Origin: a virus
Strand: one strand, 5' to 3'
Virus record (IMG/VR): IMGVR_UViG_3300045125_000119
Location: 82,165-146,164 of that record
Length of the DNA stretch: 64,000 nucleotides
Of the stretch, positions 25,647 to 61,860 are shown piece after piece. Both the position numbers and the translations under genes were made by a program. The notes beneath the pieces were generated by a model. The model searched no databases. It was not told the DNA's origin and worked only from the letters and a program-made list of their open reading frames with translations. The number at the start of each line of letters is the position of its first letter. Position 1 is the first letter of the stretch.

Positions 25647-26645
25647 GTAGGCGAACGGTTTGCTTTTGTTTTTAACTAGCAAGTCGAAGGCGTTCATTAT
25701 TTCGTTGGCTTTTGTTTCTGCCACGCACGGCTTCGGATGGTGCAGCGGGACTTTCGGACACATTTGCCAGTTGTTGCACGGCCCGCACCAGTCGGGGTCA
25801 CAGTCTTTGTGTTTCTGTACCAGCATGAAGTCGTAGTGTTTTCCGTACACTTTGCCGTTAGTCCAACTGAATATGCCGATCAGCGGTTTTTTCATTCCGC
25901 CCGCCAAGTGAAAAGCCGCTGTGTCGATAGAAATGACGTAATCGACGGCGGCGATTACCGATTTCCACGTCATCAGATCGGCAGTCACGATAGATTGGCA
26001 ATTGAGCAATTGAAACAGAGGCGGCGGATCGGTGTGCATAACGACTACATTGAATCCCCTGTTTTGAAGGCCGATAACCACATCAACAACTGTATTGTCA
26101 AACAGATTTTTTCAGTTCCGTTGTTCGTAAACGGAACGAATAACACCGACGGTTTGTCGCCGATTAGCTTTCTGGCTTCTAACAAATAAGGTGTCGGCAC
26201 TTTCAGGTGCATATCGTGTTTCTGAAGTTCTACGCCGCAACTTCCGGCCCAGATGTCGCTTCTGTTGACGCTACAGTTTATTCCCGTCGAAGCCTCGTAT
26301 ACTCGACACCGGGTTGTGGTGTCATAAACTATGCCATAGTCTTCATTTTTGGAATAGAGGTAGTCGTAGCAATCGTGCAGGAATGGGTGATCCTTGACGA
26401 TTTGAAGGTATTCCTGCGGGCAACAAAAAGTGAGTTCGATTTCCGGCATTATCCGATGGAAGTCCTCGAAGATCATCCTGTGCATGATGATGTCGCCGAG
26501 GCCACCCACACGCCGCCGAGACCAACACTTTGTTGCGACGTTCCCAGAATTGCCGTAAAGATACAGGTTTTTTCCCACGCTTTTTTACCAGACACTTGAA
26601 TAACGTGTTCTTGCCAGCTTTGTTTTTCTTTTCGCATTGATACAT
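25626..26645 (-). CDS. Glycosyltransferase family 9-like (heptosyltransferase fold) (frameshifts)
   Basis: AAGGACACTAT precedes ATG 26645. N-terminal RRVGGLGDIIMHRMIFEDFH is the GxGDxI loop of GT9, then IELTFCCPQEYLQIVKDHPF. After a slip near 26080 the C-terminal Rossmann domain has AVDYVISIDTAAFHLAGGMK and PLIGIFSWTNGKVYGKHYDF, the STDTGxxHLAxxxxxPxxxLF pattern of ADP-heptose transferases. A Cys-rich insert (CDPDWCGPCNNWQMC) follows. About 335 residues. The presence of HldE at 47269 makes an ADP-heptose donor plausible, though not shown. Confidence 0.75.
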
Positions 26646-38575: not shown

Positions 38576-38617
38576 TCAAGCTTGCAATTTGTTTATTTTT
38601 AGCTACCCTGGAGGCTA

Positions 38618-40675
38618 ATGACCAAACCCAAGGAAAGTGAAATGCCGCCGATCATCAAACTGGAAGATCAGCCCGTTTGTGTTGCGACGAGCGAATACCC
38701 TTATGCGAAGTGGAAGTACGAAAAGTTCAACCCTCCTCAAAGTCAGGTGTTCGAGCGTTACGACAAAGACAACAACGGGCTGATTGCCGCCATGACATCG
38801 GCTGGCAAGACCACTATTGCCGAGATGTTCTTGAGTCACGAAATCCGTGTCCGTGGCGGCAAAGGCATGTTCCTTGCGCCGCTCCGGGCACTCGCTCAAG
38901 AAAAGATTGATGAGTGGACCGACAAGGACTACCATTTTGCCGACAGGAAAATCTCAATTTGCACGGGCGACTACCGTCTCACCAAAGACCGTGCAAAAGA
39001 ATTGAAGCGAAGCCGACCTCATCATTATGAGTACGGAAATGCTCAATCACCGTAGTCGCAATTACAAGGCCGAACAGAACGAGTGGCTCAAGGACGTTGG
39101 CACACTCGTCATTGACGAAAGTCACCTGCTCACCGTTCCCGGTCGGGGCGATCACCTCGAAGTCGGGCTGATGAAGTTCACCGAAATCAACCCCAACGCT
39201 CGTCTCGTGTTGCTCAGTGCCACGATGCCGAACGTCGAGGAAATTGCCGAGTGGGTTTCTTACGCCTTGACCAAAAAAGACACCTTCTGTCTCAGAAGTA
39301 AATATCGGCCGTGCCCGCTCAACACCCACTACGAGTCGTATTACGACGGGTATCGCAAATACGACGATATCGAGGGTGAAAAGGTGTCCAAGGCTTTGGA
39401 TATCATCGAATATTACGATCAGGACAAATTCCTCGTATTTGCTCATACCAAGCGAACCGGGGAACTGATGAAGCAGGCTTGTAAACTTGCCGGGATTCCG
39501 TGCGAGTTTCACAACGCCAACTTGGAGAAGAAAGACCGCATCGCACTCGAACAGAAGTTCCGTACAGACCCCAAACTTCGGGTCATTGTGGCTACGCCGA
39601 CGTTGGCTTGGGGGCTTAACATGCCCCGCCCGCCGGGTCATCATCCTCGGAGTCCACCGTGGACTTGAGGAAGTCGAAACCTACAACATCACTCAGATGA
39701 TCGGTCGCTCCGGGCGGGTCGGCCTGGACCCGCAGGGCGATGCGTATATCCTCTTGCCTGAGAGCAAGATGGACATTCACAAGAATCGCCTGAAAGTCCC
39801 ACCAAGGATCGAGAGCCAGTTGCTTTCAAAAGAGGCGATCACCACAAGGTCTTGGCCTTCCATTTGGTCAGCGAGATTCACCACGGATACATCAAGACCA
39901 ACGACGACGTTCACAACTGGTACAAGCGGTCCTTGGCCTCGTTCCAAAACAAGGCTCTGGACGATACTGTTGTTGACAAGAACGATGGACTTGTTGAAGA
40001 AGGTGGGGGCCATTTGGGAAGAAAACAGCGAGTACAGTGCCACCACGGTCGGGCAAGTAGCCAGCATGTTCTATTTCAGTCCGTTTGATGTGAGTGATTT
40101 GAAGAAGAACTTCAACGACTTGTTCGCCAACAAGAATCAAGACAACGATTACTGGCTTTCGATGGCCCTCGGTAATATCGACGGTCAGCGTATGAACATC
40201 GTGTCTAAAGCGGAAAAGGACGAGATGTCCATGTACCACACGAAGGTGCGTGAACTTCTCGGCACGAGGTTCTACAACGATGCGGCCGTCAAAGCGGGTT
40301 TCTGTTATTTCCAACTTTTGAACGGGAACAACAGCGGCGTCCTTTCCGCCATGCAGAGAAACCTTCCAGTTCGATTACAACCGGTTGTCTCAGGTTCTAA
40401 TTGCGTTGGATTCAATGGGCTGTAAGTGGAATAAGTCTGCGTGGTTCAGAGGCATCGAGCAGAGAATCGCTCACGGCGTTCCGATGTATTTGATCGACCT
40501 GTGTCGAGTCGGAAATATTGGAAAGGCTCGTGCCAGGAAACTCTACGACAACGACATCAAAACGGTGTCCGAGTTGGCCGATCTGGACCCGGCGAAGGCG
40601 AAGAAGCTGCTCAACATGAAAGACGATGCTGTAAACGCTATTCTGTCCGAAGCGAAGCAGCTTGATTTAGCTTGG
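38618..40675 (+). CDS. Superfamily 2 helicase, Ski2/Hel308-like (frameshifts)
   Basis: CTGGAGGCTA precedes the ATG. Motifs in order: FNPPQSQVFERYDKDNNGLI (Q-like), AAMTSAGKTTIAEM (I), MFLAPLRALAQEKIDEW (Ia), slip near 39000, LVIDESHLL (II, DESH), VLLSATMPN (III), FLVFAHTKRTGEL (IV), RVIVATPTLAWGLNMP (V), slip near 39625, TYNITQMIGRSGRVGLDPQG (VI, QMxGRxGR). A winged helix and ratchet region follow, and a C-terminal helix-hairpin-helix (LCRVGNIGKARARKLYDNDI). About 690 residues. It should unwind forked or D-loop DNA, or RNA, in recombination repair. The stop is blurred near 40675. Confidence 0.85.
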
Positions 40676-47268: not shown

Positions 47269-48660
47269 ATGAGTCTAATCAGTGAATTCCTCGCACGAAA
47301 CGAGATGAAAAACATTCGCATCGCCATTGTGGGCGATGCGATGGTTGACAGAATACTACTACGTTTCGGTCAAACGTGTCTCGCCGGAATTCCCTATTCC
47401 GGTAATGCTCGCAGACAGTTTGTACCCAGATTACGCACTGCCGGGTGGGGCGGCAAATGTTGCCTACCAACTCAGGCACTTCAACGCTTCGGTTTCACTC
47501 AATTCTTTGATGGACCCGCAATCAGCGAAAATCTTCCAAACCGCCGGTCTGGACGTTCGTTCCGGGGTGGAAATGGCTGCGGGTTACGGACACGTTCCCC
47601 GCAAGCGGCGATTTTATAGCAAGGATTTTCCGCTTGTTAGATGGGACATCGAACTGCCTCAGTACGGAGTTGACGGCAGTCACTTGGAAGACTATCTCGC
47701 CAAGTTGATGGGACGAAAATTTGACGAAGATGTGGTGATTCTTTCGGACTACGACAAAGGTTTATTTTCTTTGGATTTTCAGTGCAACATTTTGAAGTCC
47801 GGTGCCATTACCGTCGTTGACCCCAAGAGCAAAAACATTGACAAGTGGCACGGCTGTTCTATTTTCAAGCCGAACTCGGTCGAGGCAGTAGCCCTCAGCG
47901 GTGAAACCCGTTGGGAGTTTCAGTGTGAATATTTCCGCAAAAGGCTGAACTGTGGTGCGGTAGTCATTACCCAAGAAGGTGACGGAGTTGTCGGTTGGTC
48001 CGACGGAAAAATGTTCGAGTACCGTCCCAAGGGGCGTGGCGTTCGGGCCGAAAGCGTCATTGGTGCCGGTGATTGTTTCGTCGCCATTATGAGTTTGGCG
48101 GTCGGTTTGGGGTTCTCTGTGCGGGAAGCGGCTGAGATTGCGTTCGAGGCCGGTTCCCTTTATGTCCGTCGCAAGCACAACGAACCAGTGACCCTCGTCA
48201 ACTGCGGCACAAGGACGACCCCGTGCAAGCCAAATTCGTTACCCCTCGTGAATTAAAGGGCAGTCCCGGCAAATTGGTGTTCACGAACGGTTGTTTTGAC
48301 ATTCTGCACGCCGGACACCTCAGCACGCTGAATTTTGCTAAGTCTAAAGGCGACCGTCTTGTAGTGGCCGTTAACAGTGATGCCAGCGTCAGTCGCCTCA
48401 AACCGGGGCGTCCGTTTACTGCTTTGGAAGATCGAATGAGGTTGCTCGCCTCGTTGGAAATAGTGGATTATGTCGTTTCGTTTGAAGAGGACAATCCGAA
48501 ACGATTGATCGAAGAGGTGCAACCCGATGTGTTGGTCAAAGGCGGCGATTACGTTCCGCAAGACATCATCGGGTCCGATTTAGTTGAAGAGGTTTACGCC
48601 GCTCCGTTGGTGGCAGATTTGTCTACCACCAACTTGGTCGAGCGGATCAAGAACAGTTGA
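47269..48660 (+). CDS. hldE: HldE-like bifunctional heptose-7-phosphate kinase / heptose-1-phosphate nucleotidyltransferase (two frameshifts)
   Basis: [27 protein letters not shown] begins the PfkB kinase; after a slip near 47365 [20 protein letters not shown] (KRxSPExPxPV, as in HldE) and [20 protein letters not shown] follow, with [25 protein letters not shown] and the catalytic [21 protein letters not shown] slip near 48225 leads into the C-terminal transferase: [20 protein letters not shown] (FDxxHxGH), [40 protein letters not shown]. About 463 residues, the full E. coli HldE length. It would make ADP-heptose. Confidence 0.85.
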
Positions 48661-48876
48661 TTACTTGCAGCACTTGACGCACTTGCAACCGTCGCAGCAC
48701 TTTTTGTCTGCCACACACTTGCAGTCTTCACACTTGCAGTCCGGGCAACAAACGCACTTCTTGACAGGGCAGCAGGCTCCACACTTCTTTGCAGCCGGGC
48801 AGAAGAAGTGGAAAGCGCCTACGACGAGGGCGAGGGCCAGAACGCAGCCGACGAAACATTTAGCGATACACCACAT
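48661..48876 (-). CDS. Membrane-anchored 20-cysteine peptide, metallothionein-like
   Basis: AAGGAGCAATATT precedes the ATG. Intact, 71 residues with 20 Cys. MWCIAKCFVGCVLALALVVG is a membrane helix or signal, then nearly the whole remainder is C-C, CxC and CxxC units with Lys/Asp (KKCVCCPDCKCEDCKC). This composition fits a metal-thiolate cluster. A CTAAATA motif lies 27 bases upstream. Convergent with hldE, the stops almost touching. Homology to known metallothioneins is not claimed. Confidence 0.75.
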   Translation of the reverse strand: MWCIAKCFVGCVLALALVVGAFHFFCPAAKKCGACCPVKKCVCCPDCKCEDCKCVADKKCCDGCKCVKCCK

Positions 48877-48942
48877 AATATTGCTCCTTGTTCCAGATAT
48901 TTAGCGTCTGGATACGCATTGCAACTATATGTATGATAGCGT

Positions 48943-49229
48943 ATGGCAAAAAAACGTTACACAAAAAAGCAATGTCGCAAGAGATTTGACGGGAAGTGCT
49001 TTTTCTGTGGTGTTTCCGAGTACGAATTGCTTGACGGACCACCGCATTTTCGAGGGTCAGGACGGTGGCACTTACGACTGGAACAACATTTTGACAACCT
49101 GTGCTTTGTGTCACAGAAAGTGTCACACCGGTATCATCAAAGATTTTGGGCAAGCACCCTTCTTCTTCCGGCCGGTGGATGGTTCATTACATTGACGAAA
49201 ACGGCGAAGAAAAGTGGGTCGCCAACTAA
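48943..49229 (+). CDS. Small HNH endonuclease (two frameshifts)
   Basis: MAKKRYTKKQCRKRFDGKCF-FCGVSEYELL, slip near 49040, HRIFEGQDGGTYDWNNILTT then CALCHRKCHTGIIKD. H-R-I, N-I and the CxxC/CxxxC pairs form a zinc-stabilised HNH core. A second slip ends with HYIDENGEEKWVAN at 49229. About 95 residues. Homing-type. Confidence 0.65.
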
Positions 49230-49237: not shown

Positions 49238-49432
49238 ATGAAGACGTTCGCTCAGTTTCTCGCCGAAAAAGAGAAGATATTCACCACGTTCTCTGGGCAG
49301 TCGCCGGGCAAGGCGATGGCTTCCGTGGTTCGTCCCGCCCGCCCGGTGAAACCTTTCTCTGGAATCAACGTTGCCAAAATCTTCTCGAAAGATGGTCCGG
49401 CCCGACAATCTCCTGGCGTTATGGGAAAGTGA
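49238..49432 (+). CDS. Small head protein candidate with T4-type capsid-targeting leader
   Basis: Intact, 64 residues: MKTFAQFLAEKEKIFTTFSG, then PVKPFSGINVAKIFSKDGPA. The first ten residues differ from the T4 leader MKTYQEFIAE at only a few conservative positions. The rest is basic and proline-rich. Packaging into the prohead is inferred from the leader. Confidence 0.6.
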   Translation: MKTFAQFLAEKEKIFTTFSGQSPGKAMASVVRPARPVKPFSGINVAKIFSKDGPARQSPGVMGK

Positions 49433-51609: not shown

Positions 51610-53702
51610 ATGGAATCCGTCACCGAGGGGAAGATGAATCAACTCAAGAGAATCACCAGTCTTTTTGACCGGAACAAGTTCCGTTCGTTGAATTCCGAGA
51701 TGAGCATGGCCGAGTACATCGACCTGTGCTTGAAGCAGCCCAAGCTGGGTCGCAACTCGTGGCAGATGATTTACGACATGATTATGGAGAAGGGTTACTC
51801 CACGTTCGAGGAGTATCGTAAAACTTACACCCACTACAACTTCTTCGATGACGAGGAAATCCCCATCGTCGGCCTCTCCGAGATGAAGGACTCTTTGGTC
51901 AAATTCATCAAGGGTGCCGCCGGTCACTACGGTACGGAAAAACGTGTGCTGTTGCTGCACGGGCCGGTGGGTAGCGCCAAGTCCACAACCTGCCGCTTGT
52001 TGAAGCGTGGTTTGGAGCGGTACAGCCACACGGACAGTGGGGCGTGGTACACGTTCAAGTGGGTCGGCCTGCCGACCGGACAGGACGGCATTTACACCAG
52101 CGACGAGTGCGAATCTCCTTTGCACGAGAACCCGCTGAAGCTGTTGCCGAACGAACTGCGTCAGCAGGTTTTGGCGGAAATGAATGCCGCCATGATCGAG
52201 CAGACCCCAGAAGAAAAGCGGGCGGAACTTTACACCTCAAGTGCGACGGCGATTTGAACCCCGCTGCAAGTTCTTCATGAACGAACTGCTGCGTCGGTAC
52301 AACGGCGACCTTGAACGGGTTCTAGAAAAGCACATCAAGGTCGTTCGGAAGACTTACAGCGAAGCCGACCGGGTTGGCATCGCCACTTTCCAGCCGAAGG
52401 ACGAGAAGAACCAAGACTCGACGGAGTTGACTGGCGACATCAACTTCCGACAGATCGCAAACTTCGGTTCGGACAGCGACCCTCGTGCGCTTCAACTTCG
52501 ACGGCGAGTTCTGCGTCGGCAACCGGGGCATGATCGAGTTCATCGAAGCCCTCAAGTTGGAAGTGGCTTTCTTGTACGACCTGTTGGGTGCCTCGCAGGA
52601 ACAGTGCATCAAGCCGAAGAAGTTCGCTCAGGTCATGATTGATGAGGCGATCTTCGCACACACCAACACGGCCGAATACGAGAAGCTAAAGAGCAACCAG
52701 TATATGGAGGCTCTGCGTGACCGCACGGTGAAGATCAACGTTCCTTACACCCTCAAGTGGCAAGAGGAAATTGAGATTCTTGAAAAGGACTACGGTCCCG
52801 ACAAGGTGCGTCAGCACGTCGCCCCTCACACGCTGGAAATTGCGGCCCTTTGGTCGGTCCTCACCCGCTTGCAGGACGACAAGGACGGCAAGTTGTCTCT
52901 CGTGGAGAAGGCCGAGCTTTATAACGGCAAGTTGCTCGCCGGGTGGACCGAAGACTCGGTGAAGGAGTTGAAGGACAAGTACCCCGAAGAGGGGATGGCT
53001 GCGGGCGTGTCGGTGCGATACGTTCAGGACAAGATTTCCAACTGTCTCTCGAACAACCACGAATATGTGAATATGTTCATGGTTTTGAACGAGTTGCGTG
53101 ACGGCCTGTACGACTCTTCCTTGCTCGACAAGGAAAAGATCGGTCGGTACACGACCTGCATCGACTTGGCCCTCAAGAAGCTGACGGAAATTCTCAAGCA
53201 CGAGGTTCAGAAGGCGTTGGTCGGCGACGAAGACGCAATCATCCGGCTCTGCACCAACTACATCGACAACGTGATGGCTTACATCAACAAGTCGAAGGTG
53301 AAGAACAAGATCACCGGACAGGATCAGAAGCCCGACGAACGTCTCATGCGTGCCGTCGAAGAGAAGATCGAAATCCCCGAACAGGGGAGCGACGACTTCC
53401 GCCGTCAGATCGCCGCCTTCATCGGCGACTTGGCCCACAAGAAGAAGGAATTCAAGTGGGACAGCAACCCGAAGCTGAAGAAGGCTTTGGAAATGAAGCT
53501 GTTCGAGGACGTGAAGGACACGATCAAGTTGAGTGCCCTCAACGTCAGCGGGGCCAGCGTGGTGGACAAGGACATTCAGGAGAAGATCGACGCCCTGAAG
53601 TCCCGACTCATCAAGCAGTACGGTTACAACGAACGTTCGGCCACCGACGTTCTCGACTTCGTGGGCGGCATCTTCGCCCGTGGCGATCTTGCCGACGAGT
53701 AA
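51610..53702 (+). CDS. prkA: PrkA serine protein kinase / AAA+ protein (frameshifts)
   Basis: AAAAGGAACC precedes ATG 51610. After IPIVGLSEMKDSLVKFIKGA the AAA+ P-loop is RVLLLHGPVGSAKSTTCRLL (residues 113-131) then SGAWYTFKWVGLP. Slips near 52250 and 52480 lead through NPACKFFMNELLRRYNGDLE, RKTYSEADRVGIATFQPKDE, NRGMIEFIEALKLEVAFLYD and LLGASQEQ. The C-terminal kinase-like region includes LDKEKIGRYTTCIDLALKKL and ends NERSATDVLDFVGGIFARGD. About 690 residues, near the E. coli YeaG length (644). YeaG/PrkA acts with YeaH in starvation responses and in Bacillus near sporulation onset. Confidence 0.9.
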
Positions 53703-60755: not shown

Positions 60756-61860
60756 CTACTTCCGCCCGGCCCCATTCCCATTCCGCCCATATCTCCAGCC
60801 ATTGCCGGGTGATCTTTCATGGCGTTCATCAGGTGATGGTGAGCGTGCTTCTTTCTTGGCAGGCATTATTTTGCTATGTGGTGCAATATCGGAAGATGGA
60901 TCGCCGCCGGGACCGTGAGGGCTTCCACCCATATCATCGTTGCCCATACCCATGCCCATGTCGTCGTCCATTCCGGCGTCGTCACCCATGCCCATGTCGT
61001 CACCATCGCCCATGCCCATGTCGTCGTCCATTCCGGCGTCGTCACCCATGCCCATGTCGTCACCATCGCCCATGTCCATATCGCCGCTGCCGCCCATATC
61101 GTCGTCACCCATGTCGTCACCTTCCATGTCTGCCGGGTGCGGCGGCTTGCCGTCTTCGTCTTCCATGTCGTCTTGGTGAGCGGGCGGGGCAACAATTTCG
61201 TTCATGGCACGAGCCAAGCGTCGGGCGTACCGTTCGTCGCCTTCCATGAAGCGAGCCAGAACGCCGTAAGTTTCGTCGTGCCGGAGCATTTCGGCCACAA
61301 GTCTGCCGAAAGTTTTATTCCGTTTCATTTCTCGCACAAGGGCCGCAACCGCACCACGGTTGACTTTAACGAGGTCGGCAGTTTGTTTGACCACTTCCAT
61401 AGGGATGACGCCCTGGCAGGCACACTCGTCCAGTTTGTCCATACCTTCGGTTGTGGCCTTCTGCATTGCCTTTGTGAATTCGGCGAGCGAAAGGCTCTTG
61501 GTCCGGTCGATCCATTCCTGAGTTTTGACCTTCGGCCACGTTTTTACGTTGTTGCCGCCGGGAACGCCACTGGCAGCCCTTGCTCAGTTTTTCTTTGCCG
61601 GGCTTGTAGGACAAAGCCTTGTCGCCTTTGCCAGCAAATCCGTCGGTGAGTTTACCCTTATTCGGGTCTTTGGCGTTGGTGCCACCGGCGTAAGGCTTCG
61701 GATCGCCGACTTGCCCTTTGCCACCAGCGTCTTTGTGTTTATCTTCCTTGCCGGGCTTGGAGTGCTGTGGGCCGTTGTAGTCGGCTACCTGTTGCACTTT
61801 GCCGGTATTTTGCAGCTTTTTCTTGTGATCCAAGTATTCCTGAAATGTCTTGTGTGCCAT
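60756..61860 (-). CDS. Scaffold-like protein with Met/Asp/Gly repeats and capsid-leader-like start (frameshifts)
   Basis: GGAGAAGCAA precedes ATG 61860: MAHKTFQEYLDHKKKLQNTG has the short leader seen in other head proteins. A Gly/Lys-rich disordered stretch follows (GKEDKHKDAGGKGQVGDPKP); after a slip near 61560 comes a helical domain (AQKATTEGMDKLDECACQGV-like, LVREMKRNKTFGRLVAEMLR, YARRLARAMNEI), then DGDDMGMGDDAGMDDDMGMG repeated, and a His/Met-rich tail (HAHHHLMNAMKDHPAMAG) in another frame near 60840. About 370 residues. An acidic, abundant internal scaffold or core protein is plausible. Confidence 0.55.
60950..61069. repeat. Two tandem copies of a 60-base coding repeat
   Basis: Bases 60950-61009 and 61010-61069 are essentially identical, coding two 20-residue Met/Asp/Gly units on the minus strand. 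Shorter Met-Gly-Asp units flank them. Confidence 0.9.

Follow-up and report, generated by a model that had tools for sequence, protein, structure and literature searches.

Described systems closest to the peptide

The 71-residue cysteine-rich peptide reported here can be compared with metallothioneins of bacteria and eukaryotes and with small envelope proteins of phages. Bacterial metallothioneins of the BmtA/SmtA type, present in cyanobacteria and Pseudomonas, are like the peptide small and rich in cysteines arranged in CxC units, sometimes with histidine; a likely binding of metal through thiolates is a further point in common. They are called cytosolic in one source (PMC8790569) and contain a GATA-type zinc-finger fold (PMC10612145). 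The peptide differs from them in its membrane helix, in its higher number of cysteines per residue and in the absence of any Pfam match. SmtA-type proteins are soluble and have no membrane segment, whereas a hydrophobic helix is found in the peptide and in nearly all of its relatives, and the GATA-type fold does not appear in either AlphaFold2 model, both being of low confidence (mean pLDDT 53-55).

Among eukaryotic metallothioneins, the mammalian proteins also hold 20 cysteines, according to PMC9846682. The peptide is distinguished from the eukaryotic proteins by its membrane anchor and by the lack of a profile match, and its likeness to them is likely convergent. The CxCGxxCxC spacing of the peptide, with lysines beside the cysteines, presumably resembles that of the dipteran metallothioneins (PF02067), the profile of which gave no match. 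No phage metallothionein was found in our search of the literature.

Small phage lipoproteins and membrane proteins, such as spanins and superinfection-exclusion proteins, share with the peptide a short length and a membrane anchor or lipoprotein signal, but they are not rich in cysteine, and the peptide matches no family. Its neighbour gene is of a described kind, encoding the bifunctional heptose kinase/adenylyltransferase HldE of phages (PHROG 7878). A search of the literature on phage hldE yielded no description of a cysteine-rich partner gene, and a report of a heptosyltransferase in a huge phage mentions neither cysteine nor metallothionein (PMC10747093).

The peptide gene and its neighbours

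The window, that is, the whole stretch of DNA analysed, is the right-hand 64 kb of a virus record of 146,164 bases. The virus is T4-like by gene content (UvsX, a single-strand DNA-binding protein and gp23-type capsid domains) and also encodes ThyX and a PrkA-type kinase. A sequence-only reading of this DNA had described, at 48661-48876, a peptide with 20 cysteines in 71 residues, a hydrophobic N-terminus, an intact frame, a ribosome site and an upstream CTAAATA. All of these are confirmed in the sequence and the coordinates are exact; the strand, which that reading did not give, is minus. The features of the locus are the following:

48661..48876, minus strand: gene for the 71-aa cysteine-rich peptide with membrane anchor (ATG 48876-48874, stop TAA 48663-48661)
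48802..48858, minus strand: hydrophobic helix, residues 7-25 (CFVGCVLALALVVGAFHFF), from hydropathy; predicted by AlphaFold2 at 3-24 with low confidence
48664..48801, minus strand: cysteine-rich tail, residues 26-71, with 17 cysteines; its core CKC-x-DCKC-xADKKC-xxx-CKC is kept in alignments
48884..48889, minus strand: ribosome-binding site AAGGAG, 7 nt before the peptide ATG
48898..48904, minus strand: CTAAATA, a possible T4-type late promoter -10 element, beginning 28 nt before the peptide ATG
47327..48256, plus strand: sugar-kinase half of hldE (Pfam PfkB), the other half lying in a separate frame
48223..48660, plus strand: adenylyltransferase half of hldE (PHROG 7878, CTP_transf_like); its stop, 48658-48660, abuts the peptide stop
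48943..49229, plus strand: HNH-like neighbour, divergent from the peptide and broken (intact relative at L016:2369-2650)
49238..49432, plus strand: small neighbour gene starting MKTFAQFLAEKEK, a start which we take to resemble T4 capsid-targeting N-termini

The translation of the peptide gene is MWCIAKCFVGCVLALALVVGAFHFFCPAAKKCGACCPVKKCVCCPDCKCEDCKCVADKKCCDGCKCVKCCK*. Its hydrophobic segment has a Kyte-Doolittle 19-mer mean of 2.41, or 2.15 if cysteine is set to zero, and the tail (counted here as 49 residues) holds 17 cysteines in four CxC, four CC and five CxxC units. The single helix is the sole part of both AlphaFold2 models with a confidence worth noting. A predicted fold of such low confidence is expected of a metal-free metallothionein-like chain, and equally of any poorly modelled peptide.

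Protein comparison with the intact genes of the relative G002, a 134 kb record whose UvsX is 78% identical to that of the window virus, revealed frame breaks in many of the window genes (one in hldE, two in PrkA and three in a UvsW-like helicase; the regions affected include 38615-40672, 47345-48651 and 51610-53699). The record therefore seems to hold frequent small insertion/deletion errors. The break in hldE lies near 48193-48274, in contrast to G002, where hldE is a continuous ORF of 469 aa, and the PrkA-type serine kinase, broken at 51610-53702 of the window, is one 703-aa ORF in that relative. The peptide gene itself is sound, having a frame that is open from start to stop and an alignment to its homologues that comes close to both ends. 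In a record so prone to indels its exact length could nevertheless have been affected, and the 71 aa are not a certain figure when the nearest homologues have 102-115 aa.

Two other regions of the window may be mentioned. A low-complexity repeat region lies at 60940-61120 (minus strand), with CCCATGCCCATGTCGTC units on the plus strand, and near it runs a minus-strand frame starting MAHKTFQEYLDHKKK, which has relatives in other phages of the group. At 25851-25976 (minus strand), a match to GT9, the heptosyltransferase family, exceeds the Pfam cut-off and is consistent with an ADP-heptose pathway in the phage.

Close homologues and selection

Relatives were located through UvsX and hldE. In three further virus lineages, a cysteine-rich peptide with an N-terminal hydrophobic segment is encoded in the same place, tail-to-tail with hldE: in G002 (115 aa, 30 cysteines), in G005/G016 (102 aa, 32 cysteines) and in G015 (115 aa, 37 cysteines). 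These peptides are 46-54% identical to that of the window, and the core CKC(Gx)DCKCxA(D/E)(K/N)KCxxxCKC is nearly constant in their alignment. Homologues of the membrane-plus-cysteine design, which the sequence-only reading had proposed to look for, have been found in further phage lineages, and the lack of conservation in relatives that it had named as damaging to its view is contradicted by them.

In the closest pair, G005 and G015, dN is 0.19 and dS 1.61, values which alone do not exclude an antisense frame, because one such frame shares the wobble positions. For the remaining pairs pS is higher than pN, and dS is saturated or close to it. These substitution patterns indicate that the peptide gene is under purifying selection.

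Similarity searches are nearly blind to peptides of this composition. Those of the tblastn type gave no match to the peptide in IMG/VR, phages, plasmids or genomes, but a homologue with 50% identity scores E = 3.8, so that absence cannot be concluded from these negative results; scans for DNA patterns and synteny recovered peptides where such searching did not. Bacterial genomes were covered by one motif pattern and by one search with insensitive tblastn confirmation, and one narrow DNA pattern had no match in the genomes of 84,980 species of bacteria and archaea. Comparison with phages at the DNA level gave just chance matches of 20-26 nt.

A family of peptides paired with hldE

A search by hldE alignment provided 79 loci. 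Counting the window and LR756511.1, there are 26 distinct cysteine-rich peptides whose genes lie beyond the 3' end of hldE on the opposite strand, usually within 50 nt of it, and all except that of L116 have a strongly hydrophobic N-terminus. LR756511.1 is a phage of 595 kb whose hldE is 47% identical to that of G002 and has a convergent helix-plus-cysteine peptide gene beside its stop.

In a control scan, 68 IMG/VR hldE loci were searched for ORFs with an ATG, a ribosome site, at least 9 cysteines (at least 11%) and a hydrophobic N-terminus, criteria that were chosen after the first matches had been seen, yet were applied alike to all positions. All 23 such ORFs fell in the slot beyond hldE on the opposite strand (up to 1.4 kb past the gene, less than 8% of the strand-bases scanned), and none elsewhere. 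Together with the same-position homologues and the excess of synonymous over nonsynonymous changes, this argues that the window ORF is a real gene and more than chance. A motif scan independent of hldE returned seven records, six with the peptide beside hldE and one (L181) with a chance frame of 13 residues.

On the hldE tree, the presence of the peptide needs seven changes, against a mean of 18.9 with shuffled labels, and none of 500 shufflings was as low. Eight hldE sequences of greater distance group into a clade of their own, in which the peptide is lacking, and at loci without it hldE is usually followed by a gene on its own strand. As judged from these comparisons, the peptides constitute an undescribed family in some two dozen different phages, nearly always beside hldE, and the link between the two genes is conserved but unexplained.

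The HNH-like neighbour, which has a CxFC...LLDxHR motif and in its L016 copy meets Pfam HNH exactly at the cut-off, lies beside 10 of the 25 other peptide loci and 4 of the 16 loci without the peptide. A mobile cassette borne by this gene was rejected as the sole cause of the linkage, since presence at just 10 of 25 loci means that it alone cannot explain it. Another recurring type of cysteine-rich protein near hldE, starting like MPCTPPLCNGTGSWCGCNCQCCPPAGCC, is found at L044:18089-18793, at L049:7723-8460 and in the starts of L122, L134, L135 and L140; proteins of this type have no match in Pfam.

Anatomy and topology of the family

The peptides of the family contain from 9 to 37 cysteines, their tails being 15-39% cysteine with many CxC units and few aromatic residues. 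Only the skeleton CxC...CxC...C...CxC is kept throughout; in the alignment C54 and C66 are invariant and C47 and C64 nearly so. At the N-terminus stands either a hydrophobic helix, in which GxxxG-like spacing is frequent, or a signal with a lipobox-like end: GAGC, ISGC, FVGC and FAGC follow the hydrophobic stretch in L105, L118, L127 and L146. Lipoprotein processing is confined to exported proteins, and the tails of these four should therefore sit outside the cytoplasm. By similarity of design, a tail-out topology is likely for the other members as well.

The window peptide lacks a lipobox ([LVI][ASTVI][GAS]C after the hydrophobic stretch), and its reading as a lipoprotein was rejected on this ground; the charges flanking its helix do not favour the tail-out arrangement. 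A membrane anchor is not universal either, as a relative of the L128 peptide encoded beside hldE at L182:3206-3433 (plus strand; MKCESCDCGCDCC...) has no N-terminal helix. The LPS-type genes and the lipoprotein-like members suggest a Gram-negative host.

Proposed metal binding and its alternatives

Tails that are rich in lysine, poor in aromatic residues and dense in CxC units are typical of metal-thiolate proteins, which makes the binding of Zn, Cu(I) or Cd on the outer side of the membrane the most economical reading. The composition is that of metallothioneins: a small size, a very high cysteine content, CxC, CC and CxxC units and few aromatic residues. No metallothionein was found in Pfam among the matches of 24 family members at E<=1, a search in which the composition correction of HMMER lowers sensitivity for such sequences, or in NCBIfam for the window peptide; a sequence search of the PDB gave chance matches only, and no entry of Pfam, PHROG or PDB matches the peptide. 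In view of these negative results, we do not class the peptide among the metallothioneins and propose only that it acts as they do.

The best-supported mechanism is thus a metallothionein-like binding of metal through thiolates at the host membrane. The N-terminal helix would anchor the peptide in the host cytoplasmic membrane, a task that lipoprotein-like signals would take over in several relatives of the same design, and the cysteine-rich tail would be a flexible chain, most likely facing the outside of that membrane, able to bind soft metal ions (Zn, Cu(I) or Cd). Such binding may buffer metal or thiol stress at the envelope, perhaps at a late stage of infection, which would be the benefit to the phage. 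To this reading, a small membrane-tethered, tail-out metal-thiolate peptide encoded by a real gene of a T4-like phage, we assign a probability of about 0.55. Metal capture at the host envelope, one of the roles suggested by the sequence-only reading, gains support from the conserved CxC/CC/CxxC skeleton, the character of the tail and the export signal of the relatives, and remains a prediction drawn from these features.

The main rival is an exported thiol/disulfide device, in which the oxidised tail would be a redox sink or a disulfide-linked coat of the envelope, for example against superinfection, instead of a metal binder. Thiols outside the cytoplasm may be oxidised, members with an anchor or a lipoprotein-like signal speak for an oxidising compartment, and the number of cysteines varies widely; all the same, the CxC/CxxxCxC core is fixed, keeps Lys and Asp between its cysteines and is closer to metal-thiolate than to disulfide proteins, and adjacent CC and CxC pairs are ill-suited to ordinary disulfides, which leaves this alternative possible but rather improbable. 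An unlikely variant retains the metal and turns the topology around, the peptide being a membrane-tethered buffer whose tail, with reduced thiols in the cytoplasm, would hold zinc or copper freed during host takeover. The window peptide, more positive after the helix than before it, fits this arrangement, and the helix-less L182 relative would be cytosolic; the lipoprotein-like relatives and the Lys or Arg that precedes the helix in 19 of the 26 members favour instead a tail that faces outwards.

Doubtful to a greater degree is a role in the heptose pathway, as its partner or its substrate, with the peptide being modified by, or working with, enzymes that use the ADP-heptose made by HldE. The very regular pairing with hldE and the GT9-like domains in the window record and in 17 of 41 others searched are in its favour. 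However, peptide and hldE genes are convergent, which precludes co-transcription, Ser and Thr are scarce in the tails (0-19%) and nowhere conserved in the alignments, and many phage hldE loci lack the peptide. That the peptide is packaged in the virion or displayed on it is very improbable: small genes with capsid-targeting-like starts do lie near it, but it has a membrane helix and no such start, and T4-like virions have no membrane, so the role at a virion surface raised by the sequence-only reading is left without support. Hardly credible is, finally, that the frame is no gene, arising from chance or antisense composition or from a sequencing artefact. The record is indel-prone and one antisense frame is also open, yet the sole start of that frame is a TTG in the window, L016 and L017, whereas in each of the four lineages the sense frame starts with ATG behind a strong ribosome site; with ATG, ribosome site, core and position conserved in independent records, the homologues effectively refute this explanation.

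As a separate observation, a 68-aa peptide encoded at L067:6969-7175 (plus strand; record G009; MKSFNQWLESKLPEINCECDCKPCRESDCKNCNCKNCKCKGCKCKETDEDKEG...) combines a T4 capsid-targeting-like N-terminus and an LxE site with a metallothionein-like middle of 11 cysteines; it has no match in Pfam and is possibly a metal-binding protein packaged in the head.

Timing of expression

CTAAATA has been described as the late motif of the T4-like phage Aeh1 (PMC1524935). NTAAATA precedes starts with a ribosome site six times in the window virus (1.0 expected) and nine times in G002 (1.2 expected), where CTAAATA is the most enriched upstream heptamer. Products of genes behind the motif include a tail-fibre-like protein and a UvsW-like helicase, yet a RusA-like resolvase is among them too. 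Within the family, CTAAATA stands before the peptide in four lineages (window, L118, L129/L141 and LR756511.1), and NTAAATA occurs within 90 nt upstream in 6 of the 26 members (0.67 expected).

The late expression that the sequence-only reading had deduced from this motif is supported in part, by its enrichment and recurrence in different lineages, but CTAAATA is missing immediately before the peptide gene in the three closest homologues. In G005 and G015, a small gene whose product has a capsid-targeting-like N-terminus comes first and the peptide gene second. Late expression is plausible on these grounds.

Significance of the peptide and its pairing with hldE

The pairing with hldE, which was not visible to the sequence-only reading, is the more surprising part of these results. 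Its regularity and the GT9-like matches hint at a joint envelope function, although the genes are convergent and phage hldE is often found alone. It is tentatively proposed that hldE and an exported, metal-loaded cysteine-rich peptide form a two-gene envelope module in many large phages and act jointly at the surface of the Gram-negative host during infection. If this is true, the module could change metal-bridged LPS or block rival phages, and phages would encode a hitherto undescribed sort of metallothionein-like system, tethered to the membrane.

The link is so regular that hldE can be used as bait for further members of the family, and the peptide offers in turn a handle on the question of what phage-encoded hldE does. 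The wide distribution of this family, its strongly conserved position and its probable export, in phages as large as 595 kb, suggest that infection imposes a so far unrecognised demand for metal or thiol handling at the envelope.
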